Shown here: one piece after another, positions 19,681-25,534 of the stretch | Numbering within the stretch: position 1 is the stretch's first letter | Layout of the letters: every line of letters starts with the position of its first letter | DNA from: a virus | Direction: 5' to 3' (one strand) | IMG/VR virus record: IMGVR_UViG_3300032213_001125 | Coordinates: 1 to 27,623 of that record | Length of the DNA stretch: 27,623 nucleotides | Program-made: the position numbers and the translations under genes | The notes under the pieces: model-generated | What the model was told of the DNA's origin: nothing | The model's database searches: none | What the model saw: the letters and a program-made list of their open reading frames with translations, nothing else

Positions 19681-20075
19681 CACTTTTTCCCCAATGTTTC
19701 CTGCAAAGTTGGCCGTGAATAGTCGCCGCGATTGATTGGACCCACTTCAAGCTGCACCTTGCCATCGCGCATAACAAGTTTACCGCCCTTGATAAGGCGA
19801 GGCTTCGGCGTGTTGTTGTAGATCAATTCGCGCTTTTGATTGCTGTAATAAACCAAAGTCACGTCGCCGTTTTCTATGCGCTCAAGTGCTTTGCTGAGCC
19901 GCATCTGCACCGTTTCGGTCAATGGTTTGGCTTTATCTACAAAAATCTGACGCAGATATTGTTCGGTGAAGCCAGCAAGCTCACCAAGATAAGACCAAGA
20001 GATGATGCGCTTCTCATCGTTCGCGAAGCGTTCCATCCGCGCATAGAGTTCGGCTTTTGTCATTGGTTTCTTCAT
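19680..20075 (-). CDS. Helix-turn-helix DNA-binding protein next to terminase (131 aa)
   Basis: Residues about 24-65 look like a lambda-repressor-like helix-turn-helix: SWSYLGELAGFTEQYLRQIF, then VDKAKPLTETVQMRLSKALE. A strand-rich second part (DVTLVYYSNQKRELIYNN) and a Lys/Arg-rich tail follow. The ATG overlaps the terminase stop as ATGA. Two readings are possible: a small terminase subunit, which recognises packaging sites and is usually coded beside the large subunit, or a transcription regulator of the late module. Its place after the large subunit is unusual for a small terminase, and oligomerisation features are not clear. Confidence 0.6.
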   Translation of the reverse strand: MKKPMTKAELYARMERFANDEKRIISWSYLGELAGFTEQYLRQIFVDKAKPLTETVQMRLSKALERIENGDVTLVYYSNQKRELIYNNTPKPRLIKGGKLVMRDGKVQLEVGPINRGDYSRPTLQETLGKK

Positions 20076-21841
20076 TGTCCGTACATCCCAATCTTTTTGA
20101 GATAGTCAGAGACGTTACGGCCAACCGACAATTGTTCTGAAGTATATTCTTCTTGATCTTCACTGACTTTGCGAGTAATGCGCCTTGCAATGAGTTGCGG
20201 CTGCACCTGTTCGGCAAAAGCGGCTGCGGCCAAACCTGTTGCCATAACACGATCATCTTTAGACCGTCCCGGCGCGGAAATAGTTCCACCTTCGCGGCGA
20301 ATGGTTTTCATTTCTTCAACAAGGTCCATGCTGCGAACCTTCATCATCTCGCGCTCAAAGTAATCTTTGAAGTAAGCAAGCATACGTTCTTTCGAGCCGT
20401 GGCTTGTCACCCAACCGATAGAGTTCGTAACGCCGCCAAGATTGTCGTTCTTGCGCCAGAGATAGTTCTGCATAGAAGACAGGACATTCATCAGGTCTTT
20501 TTGCTGGCGAGATTGTTCTGGTGGCATTGCCGCAGCCTGACGCCGCAAGTTCTTCAGTTCTTGCAAGACCGCTTGGCCTGGGCCATTAACTTCCAGATTG
20601 AGAGTAGAGTTCTTATACGCACCAGCCAAGTGAGCGATAACCCATGCGAACTGGTAAGTGTTAAGTTCACTCGTAGCAAACTCGGCAACCTGGTCAAGTC
20701 CGTCCGCATAACAACGAAAGACTTGGATGCAGAACCTATCAGCCCAGTCCGAAGAACCGTATGCCGGGTCTGCTCCGATAACATAGAACGCCGTGTCAAT
20801 TGGCTCCTCCCAGATTTTCAACGTGGCAAGTCGTTCTGAAGATTTGACAACTTCAGTATCAACGAAATTATGTCCCATCACATAACGATAGCAATCGGGC
20901 GAGAGCTTTTTGATTTCCTTCGCAGCGTCAGTGCAGCGCGAGTTTGAAAAGAAACTCGTTCCGGTCATCACGAAAGCATAGTCTTCCGTGGGCGGGAACT
21001 CCTGATACATGAGCGCGTCATCTTTGATGCCTTCGTGCATCTTCCAACGCCACCAAGCCATCTGGCGCGAGTTGATCTCAACGCCATAGAGCTTCTTGAT
21101 GTCTTTGACCCATTCCTTTTCTTCGGGCGTGAGCTTGCCGTCCCAATAGACTTTGTAGACAGGCGTCTCGGCTCCAACAGAATAAAGTTCGTTGCGCCAC
21201 CAGCCGCAGAAGATTGCTCGTTGCGTACGCGCCCGTTTGGCCGTGACATACATATCGTGGAACATGTTGAAGCCGCGCGCGGTGCTTTCGAACATATAAA
21301 GCCGGTTTGGATTAGTCTCAGCGAGTGAGGCGAGGAGGGACGCCAACCCTTCCTCATCGCCCCACGAACTCGTCTCCGTCCCGTGGAGATAAGTAATCGC
21401 CTTACCGCGACCAAGCGAACCCTTAGCGCGTAGGCCAGCCACCTGATAGAAAAGCCGCGAGCGGTTCTTCAGAGATAGCTGGTTACGGTTATGGGCAACC
21501 GCCGGGATTTTGTACTCACGCGGCAAACCATCCATGTACATCGCCAGCGTCGTCCTGAACATGTCACGGTTTTCTTCCGTGTCTGTGGTCAGAGTGCCTT
21601 GCAAGCCTTGATGCACAAAGTGCCAATAGAGGTCGAGCGCGAGGCTGATTGTTGTGATGCCAAGCTGACGCCCCTTCAGGATGACAAAGAAGTGGATGTC
21701 TTCCTGTAGACCCTTGTTGATTTCTTCCATGACATAGGTCTGCGTCCCCAAGAGCGTGTCCATGCGCTTGAGGCCGTGTTCCTTAGTCTCAATCCTAAGC
21801 TGAGAGCAAAAGTGGTAGAACTGTTTAAGGTTAAACTTCAT
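20072..21841 (-). CDS. terL: Terminase large subunit (packaging ATPase/nuclease)
   Basis: I start at the ATG 21841-21839, which overlaps the upstream stop as ATGA; a GTG at 21847 would add two residues. The ATPase half has a Walker A-type segment KGRQLGITT at residues 56-64 and a probable Walker B/catalytic region ITYLHGTETSSWGD with Glu156. A coupling motif FESTARGF lies near 184-191. The nuclease half has IGADPAYGSSDWAD with Asp358, LNLEVNGPG with Glu417 and the SKDDRVMA segment with Asp529/Asp530, the acidic metal-binding set of the RNase H-like fold. The enzyme docks on the portal, pumps DNA with ATP and cuts concatemers. The 589-aa length matches T7-like terminases (about 586 aa). Confidence 0.92.
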   Translation of the reverse strand: MKFNLKQFYHFCSQLRIETKEHGLKRMDTLLGTQTYVMEEINKGLQEDIHFFVILKGRQLGITTISLALDLYWHFVHQGLQGTLTTDTEENRDMFRTTLAMYMDGLPREYKIPAVAHNRNQLSLKNRSRLFYQVAGLRAKGSLGRGKAITYLHGTETSSWGDEEGLASLLASLAETNPNRLYMFESTARGFNMFHDMYVTAKRARTQRAIFCGWWRNELYSVGAETPVYKVYWDGKLTPEEKEWVKDIKKLYGVEINSRQMAWWRWKMHEGIKDDALMYQEFPPTEDYAFVMTGTSFFSNSRCTDAAKEIKKLSPDCYRYVMGHNFVDTEVVKSSERLATLKIWEEPIDTAFYVIGADPAYGSSDWADRFCIQVFRCYADGLDQVAEFATSELNTYQFAWVIAHLAGAYKNSTLNLEVNGPGQAVLQELKNLRRQAAAMPPEQSRQQKDLMNVLSSMQNYLWRKNDNLGGVTNSIGWVTSHGSKERMLAYFKDYFEREMMKVRSMDLVEEMKTIRREGGTISAPGRSKDDRVMATGLAAAAFAEQVQPQLIARRITRKVSEDQEEYTSEQLSVGRNVSDYLKKIGMYGQ

Positions 21842-22035
21842 GTCCACTCATGCTCTTCAAAAGAGAGAACTGCCTCGGCAAATTCGGCAATGTCTTCATG
21901 TGTCGCATAGACATCGACCAAAGTCACAACACCGCGCAAGCCATTCCTCAAACGATTGATCTCTTTGATTGCTTCCGCAATGTCGGGATCAGGAACGAAG
22001 GCATGTCTGGCTTCAAGCTGTTCAAGGATGTTCAT
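21838..22035 (-). CDS. 65-aa acidic helical protein before terminase
   Basis: The short protein starts MNILEQLEARHAFVPDPDIA and continues as charged helices (EAIKEINRLRNGLRGVVTLV), with an acidic C-terminus (FAEAVLSFEEHEWT). It is ATGA-coupled to the terminase gene and starts only 2 nt after the radical SAM stop. A small terminase subunit is one possibility from position, but no DNA-binding motif is visible and the protein is acidic. Function unknown. Confidence 0.65.
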   Translation of the reverse strand: MNILEQLEARHAFVPDPDIAEAIKEINRLRNGLRGVVTLVDVYATHEDIAEFAEAVLSFEEHEWT

Positions 22036-22037
22036 GC

Positions 22038-22940
22038 CTATTGCCCGCTGTTGTAGAGGGTCACGCGCTTATCAACTTCCTGTTTGCTCTTTGCGTCAAG
22101 CAAGACGATCTTCCGCTTTTCATGCGTGGCAGATTTTGTCGCCAGGTCGGCATTGCTTTCCGTATAGGTGTCAACGTCATCTGTATCGATAGACGGTTTG
22201 AGCTTGGCAGGCACTCCGCAGCCGGGGCAGAAGCGCTTAATCTGGTCTCCAAACTCGGTGATGTGCTTTTGCCACCAGCCTTCAGTCACGGGCAGGCCAT
22301 GGTCCTGATTGCGGGCAAGGTCAAAGCTCGCTGCAACCTCGCAAAAATAGGCCCGAAGCTCGCCCTTGTTCTGGACAATGGACGCAGACCATTCCTTGTT
22401 GATGTCGCAATTGGCAATCTTGTTCCACATCTCTGCCTCTGGGTAGAGGTCTTTGACTGCGGTCAGCAAAGGCGAGTGCTGGGAATTGCCGCCATAGAAC
22501 CAAGACAGGCCACCGCTGGCCGTCACAGTCTTATGCAGATCGAGCAAATTGGCTTCAGCCCGCGCCTGACCGTGGCTATTGAGGTTAAACGTGCCAAAGG
22601 TTTCCTCAATAATGGCGCGGTGTTTGAAGTAATTGTTCGTCCAAAGGCCGCGCTGCAACTTATTCGGCACTTCTTCCTCAAAGATGCGGCAAAGGGTTTC
22701 AAACTCTTTGTGCATACAAGGATTGCCGCCAATCATGGCGATAACGCCGAAATAGCCCTTCAGGCTCTTCAAAGCCTTGCGAAAGTTATCAGGCGTCATC
22801 TCCCAGAAGGCATCCTGGTTTTCCAAGAGCCTTGTGCAGTTGGAACAAGCCAGATCACACTTGTTGGTCACATCAATACAGATGATGTGCATGTTGCGAG
22901 GCCCGCGCATACGGGCAATAGCGTTCTCAACGTGGTTCAT
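22038..22940 (-). CDS. Radical SAM protein with auxiliary cysteine cluster
   Basis: The N-terminal part has the radical SAM cluster motif C28-x3-C32-x2-C35 (DVTNKCDLACSNCTRL), which binds a [4Fe-4S] cluster and cleaves S-adenosylmethionine. GGNP at residues 71-74 stands where radical SAM enzymes usually have GGEP. The C-terminal part has Cys178, Cys200, Cys238 and Cys241 (RFCPGCG), a spacing that resembles a SPASM/twitch-type auxiliary iron-sulfur cluster. Enzymes with such clusters modify peptides, sugars or RNA, but the substrate here cannot be named. The gene is ATGA-coupled to the glycosyltransferase, and together they precede the terminase. Radical SAM genes are uncommon in phage packaging modules. 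Confidence 0.8.
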   Translation of the reverse strand: MNHVENAIARMRGPRNMHIICIDVTNKCDLACSNCTRLLENQDAFWEMTPDNFRKALKSLKGYFGVIAMIGGNPCMHKEFETLCRIFEEEVPNKLQRGLWTNNYFKHRAIIEETFGTFNLNSHGQARAEANLLDLHKTVTASGGLSWFYGGNSQHSPLLTAVKDLYPEAEMWNKIANCDINKEWSASIVQNKGELRAYFCEVAASFDLARNQDHGLPVTEGWWQKHITEFGDQIKRFCPGCGVPAKLKPSIDTDDVDTYTESNADLATKSATHEKRKIVLLDAKSKQEVDKRVTLYNSGQ

Positions 22941-23620
22941 GTTCTAGCCTTTGCCCAAGGAAAGCCATCGGGAAACTGTGCCTGCGCCTTGATGTTCCCC
23001 TCAAAGAAGAACGCCCTCAAGTCACGTTTGGCATTAAGCCGGTAATTCAGGCTGTAGAGGCCATTGCAGGCGCTCTCTAACTTATTCTGCGTCAAAGCCT
23101 GGTACACGAACCTGTCACCAATCATGAGGTCGCCGGTTGTCTTGTACCACAGGGGCGCTATCTGAGCCGCAATGTTGCGCTCCATCAGATAACAATTGAG
23201 ATCAATAAAGCCGCTATGATGCCCCAGACTTTCGAAGTTATCGTGGGCAAAAAAAGAGCCATCGACGTTCCTGATAGAACGCAAAGAATACGCATACGGT
23301 TTATCACCCTTGGCCTCCACCAGGCTTGCCACATGATTGGGCTCAAACCAGTTGTCGTCATCAACCCAGCAAATCAGGTCTTCCTGCACCAGATAGGCCG
23401 AAGCAGCGACAATACCGCCGTTCATCATCCCGCCGCCGCCCGTCTTCACAGGCAAGAAGCAAAGCTCAACGCCCTCAAGGTCAGCAGGCTTTACCGCCAA
23501 ATCAGCATCATCAACAAACACATAATGCCGACACGGATAGGTCTGCCGACGCACACTATCCAAAGTCTGCAATAACTCTTTGCGCCCAGTGGTCGCGGTC
23601 ACTACGGCTACACTCTTCAT
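22937..23620 (-). CDS. Glycosyltransferase family 2-like protein (GT-A fold)
   Basis: The N-terminus MKSVAVVTATTGRKELLQTL, then DSVRRQTYPCRHYVFVDDAD, is typical of GT2 nucleotide-sugar-binding domains. WVDDDNWF (Asp87-Asp88-Asp89) supplies the DxD-type metal/nucleotide site. A later GDRFVYQAL segment recalls the acceptor/catalytic region of this family. The length of 227 aa is a minimal catalytic domain with no membrane helix, so it should be cytoplasmic. It probably transfers a sugar from a nucleotide donor to an unknown acceptor (DNA, virion protein, host surface sugar or a peptide). The ATGA coupling with the radical SAM gene suggests that both act on a common product. Confidence 0.8.
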   Translation of the reverse strand: MKSVAVVTATTGRKELLQTLDSVRRQTYPCRHYVFVDDADLAVKPADLEGVELCFLPVKTGGGGMMNGGIVAASAYLVQEDLICWVDDDNWFEPNHVASLVEAKGDKPYAYSLRSIRNVDGSFFAHDNFESLGHHSGFIDLNCYLMERNIAAQIAPLWYKTTGDLMIGDRFVYQALTQNKLESACNGLYSLNYRLNAKRDLRAFFFEGNIKAQAQFPDGFPWAKART

Positions 23621-23859: not shown

Positions 23860-23936
23860 TGGTTGCGGAGGCAAGATTTGAACTTGCGGCCTTCTGGTTA
23901 TGAGCCAGACGAGCTACCGGGCTGCTCCACTCCGCG
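23860..23936 (-). tRNA. Initiator tRNA-Met (CAU), CCA encoded
   Basis: The complete 77-nt cloverleaf can be drawn. The acceptor arm CGCGGAG pairs with CTCCGCA and has the C1-A72 mismatch typical of bacterial initiator tRNA. The D arm has GAGC/GCTC with the A11-U24 pair also typical of initiators. The anticodon loop is CTCATAA (anticodon CAU), and the T arm GCAAG/CTTGC has loop TTCAAAT. The 3' CCA is encoded. Most of the sequence matches bacterial tRNA-fMet. The anticodon stem has G30-C40 and G31-C39 but U29-A41 in place of the G29-C41 of the classical three G-C pairs. It would deliver formyl-methionine to the ribosomal P site at start codons. Confidence 0.95.
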
Positions 23937-24676: not shown

Positions 24677-25534
24677 ATGCGGAATATTCACAAAGAGATC
24701 AGCGACAAGATCGTTGCTGCAATGGAGCAGGGCACCTTGCCTTGGATCAAGCCTTGGTCAGGTATGGGCGGGTCTGGAATGCCGCGCAATGCTATCACGC
24801 GCCGCGCATATTCCGGTTGCAACGTCACATTGCTTTGGCTCGCTGGTGAGGCTGGTGGTTACATCAGCAATCGGTGGCTCACCTACAAACAAGCGCAAGA
24901 GGCCGGTGGCAACGTCAAGAAAGGCGAAAAAGCCACTATGGTGGTTTACGCATCCACCTTTGACAAAAAGAACGACCAGGGCGAGATCGAGCGCATTCCG
25001 TTTCTCAAAGCCTTTTCGGTCTTTGCCTTGGAACAATGCGAAGGCTTGGATCACCTAATCGAAAAGCCCAAGGCGCTTAACCCTGACCAGCGCGACGCTG
25101 AAACAGATGCTTTTCTGACATCCACCAGCGCTGATATCCGGCATGGCGAGGGCAGGGCATATTATCAGCATTCAGACGATTTTATTATGCTGCCACCGTT
25201 TGAAGCATTCAAATCCGGCACCGGATACTATGAAACAGCGCTGCATGAATTGGTGCACTGGTCAGGGCACGGAAAGCGCTGCAATCGTCAATTTGGCAAG
25301 CGCTTTGGTGATCGCGCCTATGCAGCAGAAGAATTGGTTGCGGAATTGGGCGCCGCATTTATGTGCGCTGAATTTGGCTACGATGCTGTAACGCAACATG
25401 CAGCCTACATTCAGAATTGGATCAAAATGATTAAAGACGATCCGAAAGCCTTTGTCACAGCATCAAGCAAGGCGAGCCAAGCAGTCGAATATCTCAGGGG
25501 GCTTGCAATCGAAGACCAAGCCTTAGCAGCCTGA
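24677..25534 (+). CDS. ArdC-like antirestriction protein (285 aa)
   Basis: The N-terminal domain (residues 1-125) matches the ArdC/TraC-type ssDNA-binding domain: IHKEISDKIVAAMEQGTLPW, IKPWSG, then RAYSGCNVTLLWLAG, KQAQEAGGNVKKGEKAT and VFALEQCEGL. The C-terminal domain is a zinc-metallopeptidase-like domain with HELVHWSGH (His190, Glu191, His194) and EELVAELGAAF with Glu219 as probable third ligand. ArdC proteins, best known from conjugative plasmids, protect incoming DNA against host restriction. As first gene of the plus-strand module behind the control region, it would be made early, which suits that role. AAGGGAT precedes the ATG. Whether it is active here cannot be told. Confidence 0.85.
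   Translation: MRNIHKEISDKIVAAMEQGTLPWIKPWSGMGGSGMPRNAITRRAYSGCNVTLLWLAGEAGGYISNRWLTYKQAQEAGGNVKKGEKATMVVYASTFDKKNDQGEIERIPFLKAFSVFALEQCEGLDHLIEKPKALNPDQRDAETDAFLTSTSADIRHGEGRAYYQHSDDFIMLPPFEAFKSGTGYYETALHELVHWSGHGKRCNRQFGKRFGDRAYAAEELVAELGAAFMCAEFGYDAVTQHAAYIQNWIKMIKDDPKAFVTASSKASQAVEYLRGLAIEDQALAA

Follow-up and report, generated by a model that had tools for sequence, protein, structure and literature searches.

A twitch-type radical-SAM enzyme of uncultured phages, paired with or fused to glycosyltransferases, that probably acts on a sugar

We describe a family of radical-SAM proteins from uncultured phages. Nearly all of its members come with a glycosyltransferase, either encoded next to them or fused, and they therefore probably finish an unusual sugar for the phage particle or its DNA. 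The window, i.e., the whole stretch of DNA analysed, is 27,623 nt long and comprises positions 1 to 27,623 of the IMG/VR virus record IMGVR_UViG_3300032213_001125. The gene under study (rSAM, Table 1) is predicted to encode a twitch-type radical-SAM enzyme, an assignment well supported by the structural model, the fold matches and the conservation of its residues. According to our reading of the whole, to which we give a probability of about 0.55, this enzyme would perform an oxygen-independent oxidation of a sugar together with its partner glycosyltransferase, as part of a cassette that decorates the virion. An earlier reading of the DNA made without database searches (hereafter, the sequence-only reading) had considered an enzyme possibly of a new kind; the kind turned out to be known, and what is new is its use by phages, the fusions and the cassette.

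Table 1. Features of the window referred to in the text.
Feature	Position	Strand	Evidence
Radical-SAM/twitch enzyme (rSAM), 300 aa	22038..22940	-	ORF, motif, conservation, Pfam, model, fold matches
Radical-SAM cluster motif C28-x3-C32-x2-C35	22836..22859	-	Invariant in 77/77 rows
GGNP, residues 71-74, replacing GGEP	22719..22730	-	N73 in 79/79 rows
Predicted auxiliary-cluster (twitch) part with C178, C200, C238, C241	22218..22409	-	Model secondary structure, conservation, topology as in the available passages of PMC6231123
Antisense ORF over rSAM, 358 aa	21969-23045	+	Stops in relatives
Partner glycosyltransferase, GT2 family, 227 aa	22937..23620	-	Pfam Glycos_transf_2 2e-10, alignment, model
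ORF between rSAM and terminase, 65 aa, no family	21838..22035	-	ORF list, family searches
Large terminase subunit, marks cassette slot	20072..21847	-	PHROG terminase 1e-12, relatives
ArdC-type antirestriction protein	24677-25534	+	PF08401 + PF18818
tRNA-Met (CAT), between glycosyltransferase and ArdC-like gene	23860-23936	-	

The reading frame and the cysteine set described in the sequence-only reading were confirmed, the coding strand being the minus strand. IMG/VR, scanned twice, yielded 72 relatives of rSAM with 53-81% identity, so that the viral loci number 73 with the window included, and the addition of 8 loci of cellular assemblies brought the rSAM alignment to 81 rows. In this alignment, C28, C32 and C35 are fixed in every row having a residue there, and the auxiliary cysteines are kept nearly throughout (C178 in 78/78 rows, C200 in 76/78, C238 and C241 in 78/79 each); most of the exceptions come from L044, where the frame is broken, and in L038 the C200 is replaced. 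The GGNP found in place of the usual GGEP, which had also been pointed out before, is fixed across the relatives, and C21, C75 and C84, which the sequence-only reading did not name, are likewise nearly invariant. The Pfam Radical_SAM profile matched residues 24-91 with an E of 1.5e-5 and 25.6 bits, i.e., under the curated cut-off of 29.5, thus indicating a divergent family whose place in the radical-SAM superfamily is based jointly on the CxxxCxxC motif, its conservation and the radical-SAM fold. The minus-strand frame is under purifying selection, with dN 0.032 and dS 0.60 between L005 and L008, the dS being saturated or nearly saturated in the remaining pairs compared. A coding role of the antisense ORF was rejected because of stops in 8/8 relatives tested; among the 9 sequences compared, this antisense stretch is stop-free in the window alone.

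The fold search proposed in the sequence-only reading was then informative as to the enzyme class. The AlphaFold2 model of rSAM, built with 29 sequences (pLDDT 88.6, pTM 0.88), had SpeY as the top PDB match (Foldseek 3e-9; VIA Z 17.3, 258 residues aligned, rmsd 3.5) and BtrN as the second (Z 12.6, 209 aligned, rmsd 4.0), whereas all other PDB entries, of which SuiB, BlsE, ChlB and anSME came next, stayed at Z ≤10.8. A family profile of 32 members compared with the PDB sequences also placed BtrN (E 0.007) among the two best matches, level with 7tol, an archaeal lipid synthase (E 0.006). The identity of rSAM to SpeY and BtrN amounts to only 11-17%, so that the shared fold need not mean a shared reaction. 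In the model, a beta-hairpin (186-191/194-198) lies between C178 and C200, the latter just behind it, and C238 and C241 end the helix 227-240. The available passages of PMC6231123 define the twitch domain by the same topology, with a Cys before and after a beta-hairpin and then a Cys pair after the helix alpha2', and state that BtrN supplies four cysteines to a fully ligated auxiliary cluster. By its positions and predicted secondary structure, rSAM thus has the cysteines of one auxiliary cluster of the twitch type, the cluster itself being predicted. The window protein has no Cys beyond C241 and gave no match to the SPASM Pfam at E ≤ 0.1; a SPASM enzyme was rejected, as the further cysteines of the seven-cysteine motif (CX2CX5CX3C-gap-C) are absent. 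Orthology to QueE, an objection foreseen in the sequence-only reading, was looked for and not found (17.8 of 206 bits with TIGR03365, 13.9 of 260 with TIGR03963). The MoaA profiles of NCBIfam (18.9 bits for a cut-off of 284, 20.1 for one of 231) and NrdG, with a family score far under the cut-off, were rejected too.

The survey of homologues and gene neighbourhoods showed the linkage of rSAM to glycosyltransferases. In the window, the GT2 gene overlaps the start of rSAM by 4 bases; D87-N90 (DDDN) of its product is invariant in its alignment, and its model (pLDDT 89.4) matches GT-A-type glycosyltransferases with Z up to 22.1. When a glycosyltransferase was counted as a partner if fused to rSAM or located ≤1.5 kb from it, a recognised one was present in 68/73 viral loci: GT2 in 52, a fused GT47 in 11, a fused GT2 in 2, and a weaker call alone in 3 (L068-L070, a PHROG match of 1e-6 and an Anp1 match under the cut-off). 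The remaining 5/73 loci are cut at the gene, starting 0-54 bases upstream of the rSAM match. The gene order is variable, either GT2-rSAM or rSAM-GT2. Left out before these neighbourhood and fusion counts were L048, which is the window again, and the weak L057 and L058. The 220-aa protein downstream of a GT47 fusion (L035:8891-9550), tentatively labelled "GT9like", had no Pfam, NCBIfam or PHROG match; the label was rejected, and the protein counts for nothing in the 68/73. After clustering at 90%, where 76/81 rows were kept and L044 (internal stop) and domain matches of <225 residues were dropped, a glycosyltransferase accompanied rSAM in 29/30 viral representatives.

The best 80 of 595 large-terminase relatives, taken regardless of rSAM, served as a control. 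The terminase slot held rSAM in 6 of them, with a glycosyltransferase in 6/6, while among those lacking rSAM whose upstream sequence extends over ≥0.9 kb a glycosyltransferase was recognised in 19/59. The 80 loci collected with the GT2 profile had rSAM in 52 cases and lacked it in 28. The counts indicate that the glycosyltransferase occurs without rSAM, whereas rSAM occurs without a glycosyltransferase in no viral locus having flanks.

The fused domains are Exostosin_GT47 (6.8e-26), GT2 (2.8e-27 and 2.7e-27) and FkbM (9e-6, under the cut-off). The GT47 fusions are found in phages, those with GT2 in bacteria and two viral contigs, and those with an FkbM-like methyltransferase in bacteria; in a midpoint-rooted tree of 38 sequences, each of the three fusion types groups on its own (support 0.998 for GT47, 0.955 for GT2 and 0.925 for FkbM-like). 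That such fusions with glycan enzymes recur is the best clue that rSAM acts on their product. The partner glycosyltransferases belong to several families (GT2, GT47 and a PHROG-only type), so the donor and the acceptor may differ. The GT2 or FkbM-like methyltransferase domain is C-terminal to rSAM in L053, L055, L056, L081/L082 and L050-L052, which come from bacterial assemblies (some alphaproteobacterial) except for the viral contigs L081/L082.

As to the substrate, the sequence-only reading had named DNA, RNA, a virion peptide or a sugar. A UDP-glucuronate decarboxylase (UDP-xylose synthase) gene lies upstream of GT2 in many phages and is found nearby in 19/73 loci, its identity being clear from a phmmer match of 3.7e-110 to the solved enzyme 4gll vs. 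about 1e-37 for other sugar epimerases. A Methyltransf_24 (O-methyltransferase-like) gene is present in 14/73 loci, in one case with an additional match to the sugar O-methyltransferase TylF. In the cassette of the window, neither a decarboxylase nor a methyltransferase was recognised. Taken together with the GT47 and GT2 fusions and the GT2 neighbours, these genes single out the sugar from the original list, and we believe with good confidence that rSAM acts on a sugar. The partner genes already narrow down which sugar it may be.

In the mechanism we propose, the N-terminal [4Fe-4S] cluster bound by C28, C32 and C35 would cleave SAM to yield a 5'-deoxyadenosyl radical, and the latter would abstract a hydrogen from a sugar C-H neighbouring a hydroxyl. 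The auxiliary cluster bound by C178, C200, C238 and C241 would take the second electron, so that the alcohol would become a ketone, which is the type of reaction of BtrN and SpeY; for BtrN, this role of the auxiliary cluster in alcohol oxidation is considered probable in the available passages of PMC9012708. rSAM would oxidise the sugar that its partner glycosyltransferase handles. For many relatives, the probable candidate is a pentose delivered by the phage UDP-glucuronate decarboxylase and sometimes O-methylated afterwards. Our prediction is firmest for the reaction, less firm for the sugar and least firm for the carrier. A more detailed version, where a phage twitch dehydrogenase (fused to GT47 in one lineage) makes a keto-sugar from an already transferred pentose or hexose on particles or DNA, is put forward as tentative and, in all its details, rather doubtful.

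Dehydrogenation is, by a narrow balance, the reaction we expect, in preference to epimerisation, dehydration or another radical reaction. That rSAM is a sugar epimerase, a dehydratase or some other radical enzyme is the best-surviving alternative and has perhaps one chance in three: BlsE, DesII, MoaA and EpeE, all with other chemistry, match the model with Z 8-10, and the nearly invariant C21, C75 and C84 outside the clusters could serve an epimerase as hydrogen donors. The matches to SpeY and BtrN are, however, clearly higher, and the presence of four auxiliary cysteines points to a cluster that is fully ligated and accepts electrons, like that described for BtrN in the available passages of PMC9012708 and PMC6231123, which argues for the dehydrogenase.

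The location of the cassette bears on the carrier of the sugar. The sequence-only reading placed rSAM directly upstream of the terminase genes; the position is right, but not the word "directly", since a 65-aa ORF lies between. The region before the large terminase (20072-23620 in the window, compared with the best 80 of 595 TerL relatives) is a swap site that holds glycosyltransferases, epimerases, DpdA, MT-A70, a 2OG-Fe(II) oxygenase or methyltransferases, or else has no recognised gene. One variant, L165:1542-3211, combines GT2 with a nucleotide-sugar epimerase (PF01370, 1e-40) and has no rSAM. In L096, L097 and L099, a glycosyltransferase-like gene and then DpdA (PF23859, 1.5e-40) stand directly before TerL (e.g., L097:810-2131), a combination that might yield glycosylated deazaguanine DNA; six further relatives have a glycosyltransferase of this type without DpdA.

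We regard the cassette as a putative phage glycan-tailoring module. A virion structural protein would be its most likely target, ahead of DNA and of a glycan on the host surface; even for the virion protein, our expectation falls somewhat short of even odds. In the GT47-fusion clade, the cassette comes after the cement-like and major-head genes, and the rSAM loci have phage glycosyltransferases with sugar-tailoring genes near structural genes, as in a virion-glycosylation cassette, the glycan itself being predicted.

DNA is a serious rival carrier because the pre-terminase slot is taken by DpdA or MT-A70 in relatives. The glycosyltransferase and rSAM would then act on phage DNA before packaging and leave a sugar, oxidised or modified in another way, on a base, thereby blocking restriction, to which we assign about one chance in four. 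A large-terminase gene is near the cassette in 51/73 loci; in the best 80 of 595 relatives, the slot contains DpdA in 3 cases, each beside a glycosyltransferase, a 2OG-Fe(II) oxygenase in 3, MT-A70 in 1 and a weak D12-like gene in 1; and the window itself has the ArdC-like antirestriction gene. On the other hand, the gene-family searches in the rSAM records, which covered 23 of the 73 viral loci, mostly longer contigs with many fragments among them, found the thymidylate-synthase/hydroxymethylase family in 0/23. DpdA was also found in 0/23, a weak zero in that the positive control matched no control genome, and Tet_JBP, with a positive control that likewise matched no control genome, in 1/23, about 18 kb from rSAM. 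The position of the GT47-fusion clade in the head-gene block and the fusion of bacterial chromosomal relatives to GT2 or FkbM-like domains also speak against DNA. In the phage contig L089 (the record of L042), a Tet_JBP-like gene (5e-25) and a GT47-rSAM fusion occur together, far from each other.

Less probable again is a conversion of the host surface, by which the cassette would alter LPS or capsule during infection and exclude other phages. It agrees with L054, a Pelagibacteraceae single cell where rSAM adjoins sugar-nucleotide-like genes (judged by eye), and with the available passages of PMC7029224, which propose O-chain modification by pelagimyophage glycosyltransferases and mention radical-SAM cassettes in the pelagimyophage host-recognition island; yet most phage copies reside in the packaging or head block, and an unsystematic look at the short flanks noticed no membrane translocase or lysogeny gene. 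Finally, a RiPP-type twitch/SPASM enzyme modifying a virion peptide is very improbable: the twitch/SPASM proteins SuiB, SkfB and anSME do have the common fold (Z 9-11), but 300 aa would leave no space for an extra N-terminal peptide-binding domain, the SPASM Pfam gave no match, and the partner genes are sugar enzymes.

The family appears to be one of uncultured phages. tblastn gave no match to rSAM in 50,697 records of cultured phages (E ≤ 0.01) or in 72,556 plasmid records (E ≤ 1e-5), two collections that may lack the window's close relatives. The best viral predicted-structure match in BFVD (8e-6, 12% identity) indicates that no close member is listed there. Among cellular assemblies rSAM is rare: genome_contigs contained 8 relatives, one of them a phage contig, two further matches being set aside as weak (28% identity, E 6e-5 and 2e-4), and the class of G002 had rSAM in 2/385 genomes, both already among the relatives found. 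In the 8 genomes checked, rSAM is present in one copy. We found no description of the rSAM-glycosyltransferase gene pair in the open-access literature. A conserved phage family paired with or fused to glycosyltransferases, in a slot common with DNA-modification genes, predicts that virions or phage DNA undergo a new chemistry and supplies a short list of genes for testing it. Should the more detailed version of our reading hold, phages would use radical chemistry that needs no oxygen for the last step in making sugars of their own particles or DNA. The result would be a glycan with a carbonyl group, possibly methylated as well, and useful, e.g., against restriction. We know of no such glycan on any virion or phage DNA.

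One of the closest known systems is virion glycosylation in mycobacteriophages. In Che8, Corndog and Myrna, phage glycosyltransferases modify capsid and tail-tube proteins, and in cluster O an O-methyltransferase gene lies near the glycosyltransferases, according to the available parts of PMC11600133 and PMC12363180. Phage glycosyltransferases, and in part of the cases an O-methyltransferase or O-methyltransferase-like gene, are common to these phages and the rSAM cassettes, although the hosts differ and the accounts, as far as available, mention no radical-SAM enzyme (the term "radical SAM" occurs 0 times in the available part of PMC12363180). The likeness to QueE (7-carboxy-7-deazaguanine synthase) is confined to the radical-SAM motif region, and the window rSAM differs by its four additional cluster cysteines. 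A few antibiotic pathways are known to include sugar dehydrogenases of the radical-SAM type. SpeY (PDB 7wzv, 7wzx and 7x0b), a twitch radical-SAM dehydrogenase by its PDB title, is of like size (about 300 aa) and has a common fold with rSAM over 255-259 residues (Z 16.7-17.3, rmsd 3.5-3.7), but the identity is only 11-15%, and SpeY belongs to an antibiotic pathway, that of spectinomycin; to our knowledge, it is neither phage-borne nor fused to a glycosyltransferase. BtrN (4m7t), the 2-deoxy-scyllo-inosamine dehydrogenase, differs in its substrate, a free small aminocyclitol, in its shorter length (246 aa in 4m7t) and in a YGEP-like motif instead of GGNP. Nevertheless, besides the common fold and the weak sequence match, BtrN has the four auxiliary-cluster cysteines in the same order around a hairpin and a helix as the rSAM of the window.
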